Shown here one piece after another: positions 27,834 to 57,901 of a stretch of 60,733 bases of DNA; position 1 is the stretch's first letter, and each line of letters begins with the position of its first letter. The notes below the pieces were generated by a model, which saw only the letters and a list, made by a program, of their open reading frames with translations, had not been told where the DNA came from and searched no databases. A program made the position numbers and the translations under genes. This DNA comes from Actinomycetota bacterium (lineage in GTDB: Bacteria; Actinomycetota; Actinomycetes; Nanopelagicales; Nanopelagicaceae), in NCBI GenBank assembly GCA_009699205.1, contig WLOP01000008.1:1-60733 (forward strand). The letters run 5' to 3'.

Positions 27834-29491
27834 CCCAAGAGAACGAAGTTCGTGCTGAGGAAATTTTGGCTGCGCTCGATGAAGAACAACGCCAAGTCGC
27901 TCTAGCTACTCGCGGACCTGTGTGTGTAATTGCTGGAGCGGGTACAGGTAAGACGCGTGCGATTACTCACCGCATTGCATATGGCGCAGCAATTGGAACC
28001 ATGAACCCACAAAAAACCTTGGCTTTAACCTTTACCGCTCGTGCAGCCGGAGAGATGCGTGCACGTTTGCGCTCACTGGGAGTTCCGACAGTGACTGCTC
28101 GAACATTTCACTCGGCAGCGCTGAAGCAGCTTCTCTACTTCTGGCCCAGCGTTTTCGGTGGCAGAACTCCAGATTTGTTAACTACAAAAACTACCTTCAT
28201 CACCGAATCTATTGCTCGCGCAGGTCTTACCTCGATCCTACCTGCTACCTCGCGCGAGCTTTTACGAGATGTTGCAACAGAGATCGAATGGGCGAAAGTT
28301 TCTATGATTCCGCCAGAGGATTACATGGAGAGCGCTAAAATTCGCGCCGAACGGAATCGCATTAGCGCTGGTCAAGTTGCGCAAGTCTACGCAGCCTACA
28401 TGTCACTTCTCCGGCAAGAGCACGCAATAGATTTTGAAGATGTCTTGCTCCTGACAACTGCCATGATTGAAGAAGAGCGAGAAGTTCGCGAAAGAATTCA
28501 TGACCAGTATCGATTCTTTACTGTTGATGAATATCAGGATGTTTCTCCCTTACAACAACGACTTCTTAATGCCTGGTTAGGTAGCAGACAAGAGATCTGC
28601 GTTGTTGGCGACCCTGCACAAACTATTTATTCATTTGCAGGGGCGACGCCCATTTTCCTCAATCAATTCACTCAGCGTTTTCCTGAAGCAGAAGTGATTC
28701 GCTTGACCTCGGGATATCGCTCAACCCCAGAGATTGTTTTCACTGCAAATAGCGTTCTGCGAACTGGCTCAATGGGCCAAGAAATTGTCGCAATTAATGC
28801 ACATGGTGAGCGTCCCGTACTCAATAACTACAAGGATGAGGCAAGTGAAGCTGCTGGCGTAGTACAAGAGATTAAGCGCTTGGCAACTGTGGGAGTTCCA
28901 CCTCAAGATATTGCAGTATTAGCGCGGACAAATGCTCAGCTAAAAGTCTTAGAAAAAGAGTGCATTGCTCAAAAGATCCCCTACCAAGTGCGAAACAACG
29001 ATCGTTTCTTCGAACGTTCCGATGTGCGAGATTTCCTTAAAGGAGTTCGCCAAGCGTCAGTGATTCCTACAGAAGGAGTGGCTTGGTTAGATGAGTTGCG
29101 AACTTTGGCACAACCATTTATTGCATCTAGCGTTACCGACGGGGTCACAGCCCTTTTACATTTGGCGCGAGAGTTAGATGGTGATCCCACATTTAAACCT
29201 AAAACTTTACGGACCTACTTGCGCGAGCTCGAAGATCGATCAGAACAGAACAACCCACCAGTGATGCCCGTGACAACTCTTGCAACTTTGCACGCTGCTA
29301 AGGGCTTGGAGTGGCCACAAGTCTTCCTTGTAGGTGCGAATGAAGGAATTTTGCCCACACATGAAAACGCTGTTGAAGAAGAGAGAAGACTTTTCTATGT
29401 AGGAATCACTCGCGCTCAAAACCATCTTGTAGTGAGTTACCGCCAAAATCCGAGTCGATTCTTGCGAGAAGCAGGGTTACTGACGAGTTAG
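27830..29491 (+). CDS. uvrD2: UvrD2-like superfamily I helicase, short form
   Basis: A 553-residue 3'-5' DNA helicase starting at ATG 27830 within the nudC stop. Motifs: Walker A GAGTGKTR, TFTARAAGEMR, motif II VDEYQDVSPLQQ, motif III GDPAQTIYSFAGA, motif IV LARTNAQLK, motif V LHAAKGLEW and motif VI EEERRLFYVGITRA. The protein stops about 25 residues after motif VI, so the HRDC domain and tetracysteine tail of mycobacterial UvrD2 (about 700 residues) are absent. Position after nudC and before whiB7 supports the UvrD2 identity. Confidence 0.88.
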   Translation: MTQENEVRAEEILAALDEEQRQVALATRGPVCVIAGAGTGKTRAITHRIAYGAAIGTMNPQKTLALTFTARAAGEMRARLRSLGVPTVTARTFHSAALKQLLYFWPSVFGGRTPDLLTTKTTFITESIARAGLTSILPATSRELLRDVATEIEWAKVSMIPPEDYMESAKIRAERNRISAGQVAQVYAAYMSLLRQEHAIDFEDVLLLTTAMIEEEREVRERIHDQYRFFTVDEYQDVSPLQQRLLNAWLGSRQEICVVGDPAQTIYSFAGATPIFLNQFTQRFPEAEVIRLTSGYRSTPEIVFTANSVLRTGSMGQEIVAINAHGERPVLNNYKDEASEAAGVVQEIKRLATVGVPPQDIAVLARTNAQLKVLEKECIAQKIPYQVRNNDRFFERSDVRDFLKGVRQASVIPTEGVAWLDELRTLAQPFIASSVTDGVTALLHLARELDGDPTFKPKTLRTYLRELEDRSEQNNPPVMPVTTLATLHAAKGLEWPQVFLVGANEGILPTHENAVEEERRLFYVGITRAQNHLVVSYRQNPSRFLREAGLLTS

Positions 29492-29519
29492 CGCTCAATT
29501 ATTGATTGAATTAATTAAT

Positions 29520-29549
29520 TTGCATCATCGTGGGGCTGTGCATTATCCT
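29520..29549 (+). promoter_or_regulatory. Putative whiB7 promoter with AT-rich upstream element
   Basis: A -35-like TTGCAT (29520-29525) and -10-like TATCCT (29544-29549) are 18 bases apart. The -35 abuts an AT-only tract (TTAATTAAT), the arrangement described for WhiB7-activated promoters, so autoactivation is likely. Transcription would start about 45 bases before the leader ORF. Confidence 0.55.
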
Positions 29550-29601
29550 TGCCACACGCAATTATTCGATTGCAGAAGAAGAGTGTAGAAAGGACGCGAA
29601 A

Positions 29602-29751
29602 ATGCAATTATCTATGCATAATTTAACTACTTCGCGCTCATTCGTGCTCTCTTCACATTCCTATTCGGCCACAACCACACATCGCGCCTCAAAGCGCGCC
29701 TCGTGGTATCCCGCATTTAGCGAGATGGCCGCTTGGAGCTCAATCGGATAA
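29602..29751 (+). CDS. whiB7 leader peptide (uORF)
   Basis: A 49-codon reading frame (ATG 29602, TAA 29749-29751) with a ribosome site (GAAAGGAC) eight bases upstream, lying between the putative promoter and an intrinsic terminator that precedes whiB7. The peptide is rich in Ser, Thr, Arg and His with three Trp-containing stretches (ASWYP, AAWSS) and shows no domain. Mycobacterial and Streptomyces whiB7 genes are controlled by translated leader ORFs with a terminator, so a sensing role for ribosome-targeting antibiotics is likely. The peptide itself need not have a function. Confidence 0.75.
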   Translation: MQLSMHNLTTSRSFVLSSHSYSATTTHRASKRASWYPAFSEMAAWSSIG

Positions 29752-29761
29752 AACCGAATTG
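29741..29761 (+). promoter_or_regulatory. Leader hairpin overlapping uORF end; alternative pairing partner of terminator
   Basis: CAATCGG (29741-29747, last codons of the leader ORF) pairs with CCGAATTG (29754-29761) with one bulged A. The segment CCGAAT (29754-29759) is also complementary to ATTCGG (29790-29795) in the terminator 3' arm, so the two structures exclude each other. Ribosome position on the uORF would choose between them. Confidence 0.6.
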
Positions 29762-29769
29762 GGAACCCA

Positions 29770-29810
29770 AGGGCCACGAATCCACAAGGATTCGGGCCCT
29801 TTTTCTTTTT
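29770..29810 (+). terminator. Intrinsic terminator (attenuator) between uORF and whiB7
   Basis: AGGGCC-A-CGAATCC pairs with GGATTCG-GGCCCT around an ACAA loop (13 pairs, one bulged A), followed by TTTTTCTTTTT. It ends about 60 bases before the whiB7 start, so it must be read through for expression. Confidence 0.9.
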
Positions 29811-29871
29811 CCCAAAGAGGGGTGAAAGAAAGAAGTCACGAGCAAGAACGAGTAGAAGGAAGGTGAGAGCG

Positions 29872-30210
29872 ATGGGCGTTCTCTTCAGTGAGTTATTGGT
29901 ACCAGGCTGGGCACAAGAGGGGGAGATGATTGGGCTAGATGAGGTGACCGGCGCTTATGGCTCCGATATCGCTTTCAGCTTGCCATGTCACAACGCTGAT
30001 CCCGAACTCTTCTTCTCGGAAAAACAAGGCGAAGTAGATGTTGCTAAGGGGCTATGCACCGCGTGCCCTGTTCGTGCGCAATGTCTTGAAGCTGCGCTGT
30101 CACGTCAAGAGCCTTGCGGCGTTTGGGGTGGAGAGTTATTTGAAGAGGGGCAAGTTATTGCGCGCAAGCGCACCGTTGGACGTCCTCGCCTAGTCAGTGA
30201 TGCAGCGTAA
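29872..30210 (+). CDS. whiB7: WhiB7-type transcriptional regulator
   Basis: A 112-residue WhiB protein, an iron-sulfur regulator that binds the housekeeping sigma factor and activates intrinsic antibiotic-resistance genes. Cys39, Cys62, Cys65 and Cys71 are the 4Fe-4S ligands; GVWGGE (83-88) is the WhiB turn; and RKRTVGRPR (98-106) is the AT-hook that marks WhiB7. ATG 29872 is chosen for its spacing from AGAAGGAAGG; GTG 29863 is an alternative adding three residues. It follows uvrD2 as in mycobacteria. Regulation is probably by promoter autoactivation plus leader attenuation. Confidence 0.93.
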   Translation: MGVLFSELLVPGWAQEGEMIGLDEVTGAYGSDIAFSLPCHNADPELFFSEKQGEVDVAKGLCTACPVRAQCLEAALSRQEPCGVWGGELFEEGQVIARKRTVGRPRLVSDAA

Positions 30211-30246: not shown

Positions 30247-31395
30247 CTATCTCGGAGATTTCTCTTGCCCCCAATTACATCCGCATGCAAGATGACGGGT
30301 ATAGAGAGTCCGGTCAGTCGTGGCAAGATTATGAAAATCTATTGTCAGGCAAGCACCTAAGAGTTGAGATTTTTCTCTATCAATGTATGAGAGAAGCTCA
30401 AGAGTGATTAACCCAGCAACGTAATGTGCAACAGAGACTGGGACTTCAGAGGGCGCATGTGTAAGCCGATTAAGTTCGATCTCATCCCAGAGTATTTCGC
30501 GTTCGTGCCTTATTAATCTGACGCAGCGAAGACATGGAGTTATTCCAGGAATTACCAATGGCCCTATAAAAAGAGAAGCGCATTCTGCTGGCTCAATTAC
30601 CAGATGTGGCGTGCCAGAACTCATCCATTCTTGCTGCTGATCAGCTTGTGGCTGCCCGATAGAAATTGCGAATTTTTCTCGGGCATCGGATGAATTGGCA
30701 GGAAAGAGGGAGAGTTCTCCAGCTAATTCGCTACTTCGTACTTTGAGGTTGAGGCCAATATCGCTTTGGCGAAGAAAGCCCGATGTCAGGCTTTCAGCAG
30801 AGATCGCAGTTGAATTCTTTGCGGGGATTAGTAAGGTTTCCGAGATTCCGCTGGCAAGCAATATTCCATAGAGCAATGTTGCAATTCGGCCCTCACCGAA
30901 AATCGAAACCTCCCAATTTCGTCGTTGCGCAATAACGTTAACGCCACCATCTCTTACTCCTGATATCCAGGTAGAAGCAGAAAGTTCGGGAGCGAGTTTG
31001 CTCTGCAACTGTTGGAAGCCGCCATCATTGCTGTCATCATTTTTATGAGTAGAACGATTGGGGTTGGGCGAATGAAAGCGTTGAACGCGAATCGAAGTTC
31101 GGACGGTGTCTACTAAGCCAGCGTTATCGAGAGCGCGAACGATTTCCAGAACATCATCAAGACCAGCTCCAGAGTTCTGGCTAATCTGCGCGCACGTACT
31201 CTGGCCATCCATAGCGTTAAGGATGGCGCGGGCGTGAGGTAAATCGCTTTCGATCCCATAATTAATGCCACCGATGTAAAGACCATGACCTGTGTTGAGT
31301 ACAAGAACCCCTACTTTGAGCCGGGGCTCAATTTCTTTTAGATTTTCTAATGTCCTAGCGCTAGCAGAGCCCTCTGATTTGTTTATCTTTTTCAT
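30247..31395 (-). CDS. ThiF/cyclodehydratase-like protein of unknown role
   Basis: A 382-residue protein. The N-terminal ~100 residues look like a winged-helix or peptide-clamp region (LPHARAILNAMDGQSTCAQIS...LDDVLEIVRALDNAGLV), as in TOMM leader-binding proteins. The middle resembles a Rossmann E1-like domain (VSIFGEGRIATLLYGILLASGI, about 165-186). The C-terminal part has CLRCVRL and a final HLACGCNWG, which could hold a zinc ion. Mycobacteria carry a similar protein beside whiB7/uvrD2. No YcaO partner or precursor peptide is visible, so a heterocycle-forming role is doubtful. It converges on whiB7. Confidence 0.65.
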   Translation of the reverse strand: MKKINKSEGSASARTLENLKEIEPRLKVGVLVLNTGHGLYIGGINYGIESDLPHARAILNAMDGQSTCAQISQNSGAGLDDVLEIVRALDNAGLVDTVRTSIRVQRFHSPNPNRSTHKNDDSNDGGFQQLQSKLAPELSASTWISGVRDGGVNVIAQRRNWEVSIFGEGRIATLLYGILLASGISETLLIPAKNSTAISAESLTSGFLRQSDIGLNLKVRSSELAGELSLFPANSSDAREKFAISIGQPQADQQQEWMSSGTPHLVIEPAECASLFIGPLVIPGITPCLRCVRLIRHEREILWDEIELNRLTHAPSEVPVSVAHYVAGLITLELLSYIDREKSQLLGACLTIDFHNLATTDRTLYTRHLACGCNWGQEKSPR

Positions 31396-38012: not shown

Positions 38013-38089
<77 letters not shown>

Positions 38090-57502: not shown

Positions 57503-57872
57503 GGGGGTGAACGGTCTCGACTTTGGATGTTGGGGCAGGGGAAGCGGGCCGAGGAAGCCAGGATGATCTCGTTAACCAATAACCTGTGCAAAAAACTAAG
57601 CGCCAGTACAACTGCCGCTGACTTTGCTCTCGCTGCCTAAGCGAGCTCCCTAGTCCGTTAGCCCGAGTGAGCCTTCGATTCGGGACCTAGCGCCGTAAGA
57701 GGGCTTTTCATGGTGTTGGTTTTGCGGACAATGCCAGAGAACAGTTCTGCAAATGAGTTCGTCGGATACTTGTGTGTAAGAGATCCGGAACTGAGAAAAC
57801 GATAAACGCACTACGCCCGTAGAAGCCCTGTTTTGGTACCGAAGGACCCGGGTTCGATTCCCGGCACCTCCA
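57503..57872 (+). ncRNA. ssrA: Transfer-messenger RNA (tmRNA)
   Basis: 370 bases. The 5' GGGGGTG and 3' CACCTCC form the acceptor stem with the conserved G3-U pair, and the T-arm GGGTTCGATTCCC is standard; the discriminator A is followed by CTT, so CCA is not encoded. The tag frame ends in DFALAA before TAA at 57638-57640, preceded by KKLSASTTAA. The resume codon could not be fixed; TNNLC lies directly upstream of the KK. Position after smpB is usual. Confidence 0.95.
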
Positions 57873-57901
57873 CTTGTGTAATTCTGTTCTTAACTTACTT
57901 C

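Follow-up and report, generated by a model that had tools for sequence, protein, structure and literature searches.

The main finding of this analysis is that whiB7, a stress-regulator gene in the window, by which we mean the whole stretch of 60,733 nucleotides that was analysed, is preceded by what we are highly confident is a ribosome-controlled transcription attenuator. The genome from which the window comes measures 1.42 Mb. This reading of the leader draws on features established by computation: the parts themselves, covariation of an antiterminator (P1) together with the hairpin it encloses (P2) and of the terminator, mutual exclusion between antiterminator and terminator, the spacing between a TGG and the stop codon of an upstream ORF (uORF), and constraint on the uORF peptide. 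That the position of a ribosome on the uORF controls the leader had been proposed by an earlier, sequence-only reading, and this idea is now strongly supported by comparison, because almost all relatives retain the uORF, the terminator and an antiterminator that excludes it. The features are listed below.

29509-29518, plus strand: AT box AATTAATTAA, just 5' of the -35 element; presumed WhiB7 contact.
29520-29549, plus strand: promoter predicted from conserved sequence, with -35 TTGCAT (29520-29525) and -10 TATCCT (29544-29549).
29590-29594, plus strand: uORF ribosome site AAGGA, from sequence, scored.
29602-29751, plus strand: uORF of 49 codons, MQLSMHNLTT...WYPAFSEMAAWSSIG, with stop TAA at 29749-29751.
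29726-29736, plus strand: P1 5' arm TGGCC-g-CTTGG in uORF codons 42-45, from fold, pair probabilities and covariation.
29739-29763, plus strand: stop-codon hairpin P2 (29739-29747 with 29754-29763) inside P1, from fold, its covariation being counted jointly with P1.
29767-29776, plus strand: P1 3' arm CCAAG-GGCCA, common to the terminator 5' arm, from fold and covariation.
29769-29810, plus strand: intrinsic terminator, pairing 29769-29783 with 29788-29801, plus its U-tract, from fold and covariation.
29856-29863, plus strand: whiB7 ribosome site AAGGAAGG, from sequence.
29872-30210, plus strand: whiB7, matching PF02467.

The controlled gene is a whiB7 orthologue by its PF02467 match and by its closest solved structure, M. 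tuberculosis WhiB7 (E 3.7e-25), with which the GVWGGE motif and the GRPR AT-hook are aligned. NCBIfam models gave no match to the window's WhiB protein, and a search of viral contigs returned a single weak, partial match. The protein is nearest to proteins from freshwater actinobacterial MAGs, the top two identities being 86 and 81%, and its relatives include records named Nanopelagicaceae and Planktophila; the titles Streptomyces griseus and Bifidobacterium breve in the same list appear to be mislabelled. Of 201 family genomes, 178 carry a close whiB7 relative, and among the good ones the figure is 96 of 99. Two family genomes, G092 (L027 and C1:306570-306899) and G179 (L030 and C5:41353-41586), have two close copies each, which could be genuine or could reflect mixing in assembly. 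Elsewhere in the window there is a protein on the minus strand (30247-31395) with a match below cut-off to TIGR03882, the TOMM precursor leader peptide-binding model, a tRNA gene found by Rfam search (38013-38086) and a tmRNA gene far over its Rfam threshold (57503-57875).

The region just upstream of the leader is conserved. A promoter-like pattern, TTGC followed after about 20 nt by TANNNT, is found in 102 of 105 relatives, and the AT box lies at most 12 nt from the -35 element in 87 of 102. To judge from the literature, this box would be the site of WhiB7 contact (PMC7157823), and the whiB7 promoter is probably autoregulated. A strict promoter pattern, applied to the genome as a search for a WhiB7 regulon, matched the whiB7 promoter alone (the reversed control gave 1 match), and a looser pattern gave 5 matches against 7 in the control, so we claim no regulon. 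The helicase gene upstream of the leader ends nearby, at 29491, which could be taken to mean that the terminator merely ends helicase transcription and that the uORF is there by chance. However, a conserved promoter separates the helicase gene from the terminator, the uORF is under constraint, the antiterminator covaries, and the spacing between its TGG and the stop has a preferred value, all of which leave this explanation with a negligible probability.

The 49-codon leader ORF with its ribosome site was described by the sequence-only reading much as we find it, and conservation of the uORF, which that reading had suggested checking, is indeed seen, since a homologous uORF is kept in nearly all relatives. 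In leaders of the family the open uORF ends about 48-62 nt ahead of the U-tract, and the few family leaders that appear to have none are contig-end cuts or mis-calls by the script. For the codons 5' of the P1 arm, pN/pS in six genera runs from 0.19 to 0.75, below 1 in each, although these values are rough because the blocks are short and the sequences related. Translation of the uORF is therefore very probable, and the sequence of its peptide seems to matter. Measured against seven other proteins of the window, the peptides of this uORF and its family homologues show an excess of Ala, Thr, Ser, His and aromatic residues (Tyr, Trp) and a strong deficit of Asp, Glu and Leu; the positions 11-18 codons ahead of the stop are rich in Phe, Tyr and Ala. 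Conservation of this Ala/Thr/Ser/His/aromatic-rich, acid- and Leu-poor stretch, just 5' of the antiterminator arm, may exceed what RNA pairing accounts for, and the stretch may cause ribosome stalling when translation is under general stress or when a few amino acids run short. We nevertheless regard it as unlikely that the peptide is a selected sensor and not a mere spacer; if it is, the switch in these genome-streamlined freshwater actinobacteria would signal nutrient state more than antibiotics. Several uORFs of genus g17 (L025-L041) lack a visible ribosome site and begin very close to the -10 element, and may be translated from leaderless mRNA. In genus g5 (L065, L066) the uORF is just 27 codons long, and an antiterminator of the usual kind is not convincingly seen.

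The analysis also identified the pairing that opposes the terminator. When the leader is folded only up to the terminator 5' arm, with the 3' arm not yet made, P1 forms at -27.9 kcal/mol with core pair probabilities of 0.83-0.99 and encloses the hairpin at 29739-29763. This hairpin over the last uORF codons had been recognized in shorter form; the fold lengthens it to CTCAATCGG (29739-29747) paired with CCGaATTGGG (29754-29763), and its loop holds the TAA stop. The strong terminator already noted ahead of whiB7 was recovered as well, at 29769-29801 with a U-tract to 29810 and about -24 kcal/mol; terminators of the family leaders are mostly between -19 and -27 kcal/mol, and in the family alignment 0 of 500 shuffles match the covariation score of this element, which lies between uORF and whiB7. 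In genus g12 (L055, also L054, L056 and L058), a long gap separates the terminator from whiB7 and is full of short head-to-tail repeats, with GCAGAAAA or GCAGAACA units whose number varies among relatives. Since bases 29769-29775 are common to P1 and the terminator, only one of the two structures can exist at a time. A point against the model is that the complete RNA at equilibrium favours the terminator, with P1 pair probabilities of 0.05-0.18, so that the switch has to work kinetically.

Covariation points to the same antiterminator, which overlaps the uORF end. In an alignment of 70 non-redundant relatives of the family, P1 and P2 together have 80.8% of cells paired and a covariation of 0.185, against 0.122 in shuffled alignments (0 of 500 shuffles reach it), with 47 double-change cells against 20.8 in shuffles. 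As kinship alone can push covariation past shuffles without any structure, slid controls also count here, and the best slid version scores 0.124. An alignment-free duplex between the uORF end and the terminator arm has p<=0.05 in 51 of 68 relatives, and the antiterminator reaches at least 5 bp in 67 of 68, these being counts over akin sequences and not independent trials. Median energies in the relatives are near-equal, at -24.1 kcal/mol for the antiterminator and -23.7 kcal/mol for the terminator. A case that counts against the model is genus g5 (L065), where the predicted antiterminator has merely 4 bp and the duplex a p of 0.8. In 73 family leaders, and in 19 of 48 class leaders, the TGG of P1 precedes the uORF stop by exactly 12 nt.

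The sequence-only reading had proposed another competing pairing, in which CCGAAT of the stop-codon hairpin binds ATTCGG of the terminator 3' arm. While the two motifs are complementary in the source genome and in a few close relatives (L006, L014, L023), 57.9% of cells pair in the 70 relatives against 57.4% when shuffled, and the score of 0.098 (0.095 shuffled) is reached by 191 of 500 shuffles. Moreover, the alignment-free duplex has p<=0.05 in just 6 of 68 relatives, and the pairing is gone where the terminator reads ATTCAGG. We have therefore rejected this candidate, which has only a very slim chance of being the antiterminator. Of the two pairings proposed at that stage, the hairpin is upheld by covariation when counted with P1, and CCGAAT:ATTCGG is not. 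Judged by fold and covariation, P1 is the real antiterminator, and P2 sits inside it without competing with the terminator through CCGAAT.

Which stall position favours read-through had been left open, but the geometry of P1 allows it to be inferred. A ribosome usually covers about 15 nt on either side, so one at the uORF stop would mask the P1 5' arm and the hairpin but not the terminator, and full translation would mean off; a stall upstream, or no ribosome, would leave P1 free and whiB7 on. In the scheme that we infer for the direction of the switch, ribosome coverage, uORF translation, inducers and autoactivation, polymerase would start at the probably autoregulated promoter and transcribe the uORF. 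A ribosome at the uORF stop would cover 29726-29736 and melt the stop-codon hairpin, and with P1 blocked the later-made 29769-29801 would fold as terminator, switching whiB7 off. If the ribosome stalled sooner, no further than about codon 38, or did not start at all, P1 would form first and claim 29769-29776, and the resulting read-through would let WhiB7 boost its own promoter. The same rule has been described for whiB7/wblC in other actinobacteria (PMC11550727, PMC9618640, PMC13393426).

The Trp codons of the uORF raise the alternative of a classical tryptophan attenuator, in which conserved codons sense charged tRNA-Trp. At the position five codons ahead of the stop, Trp is the commonest residue (49 of the non-redundant set), and a further Trp stands upstream of it in 58 of 64 peptides, but the upstream one has no fixed position, and a ribosome stalled at the Trp codon of P1 would mask P1 itself. 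Furthermore, CCTGG is retained as RNA although the frame shifts in L032, L039 and genus g12, it is replaced by the re-paired CCCGGGAG in genus g9, and it is absent from part of genus g16. The Trp codon is thus lost in several genera while RNA pairing persists (L032/L039, g12, g9), which led us to reject the P1 Trp codon as a sensor. Conserved regulatory codons for a single amino acid, as in trp-type leaders, are not found at the control position, and the controlled gene is whiB7 and no trp operon. Tryptophan sensing is accordingly very improbable, and ribosome control of the leader through P1 remains our preferred reading.

The layout is found well outside the family. The leader peptide and the arrangement had been described as coming from a very different lineage, a view that does not hold, since uORFs that end in W-S-x-x-V/G-stop, have their TGG 12 nt ahead of the stop and take part in the same pairing occur across Actinomycetia, including Streptomyces-sized genomes. 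In most leaders from other families of the class, the uORF closes with WSPPV or a similar end, GCCTGGAG pairs with CTCCAGGC at a terminator GGCCGCGGA, and a hairpin spans the stop. P1 covaries in 46 wider-class leaders (0 of 500 shuffles reach its score), with compensated variants such as GCCTCGAG/CTCGAGGC and GGCCTTTGAG/CTCAAAGGCC; a minority of class leaders are without this P1 (e.g., L127, L154, L158 and L182). The whiB genes of L243 (Acidimicrobiales) and L247 (Desertimonas flava) are likewise preceded by a uORF and a terminator, and the uORF end is predicted to pair there too, with different sequence, suggesting that the layout may extend beyond the class of the window. A search of Rfam 15 with the leader gave nothing at gathering score and chance-level matches only below it; a model built from the family leaders (R1) finds some distant leaders and matches the source genome at one place only. 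We make no claim of newness for the class-wide P1 pairing. A whiB7 attenuator with the same uORF-stop layout is retained by almost all genomes of a streamlined freshwater family and is found across the class, and translation sensing by whiB7 thus looks ancestral, with no special tie to pathogens or to antibiotic producers of the soil. Backed by covariation, P1 gives an exact base-pairing scheme that is testable and could seed the missing Rfam family.

The mechanism itself is already published; here it is present in a streamlined freshwater lineage, with its pairing worked out and with no Rfam family. Lee, Lee and Roe (2022) reportedly described a uORF-mediated wblC/whiB7 attenuator in Streptomyces coelicolor. 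According to the reports on that system, full translation of the uORF keeps the gene off (PMC11550727, PMC9618640), and uORF, intrinsic terminator and antiterminator precede the orthologous gene as they do here. Likewise, in L143-L145, from Streptomyces-sized genomes, CCCTGGAG at the uORF end pairs with the terminator arm, and the TGG lies 12 nt before the stop. Compared with Streptomyces wblC, however, the present leader is AT-rich, P1 is shorter with a weaker inner part, and the peptide is different. The mycobacterial whiB7 leader also has an intrinsic terminator behind a uORF and is induced by ribosome stalling (PMC4128351, PMC13236596), but in Mycobacterium sp. E740 the predicted antiterminator differs in register, GTCCGT pairing with ACGGAC, and SVDRGTT forms the end of the uORF. 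The masking rule itself has a parallel in M. tuberculosis ilvB1, in which a terminating ribosome masks the antiterminator and an upstream stall frees it (PMC13236596), the same rule as proposed here, although ilvB1, unlike whiB7, senses defined LVVI codons and has a biosynthetic operon as its target.
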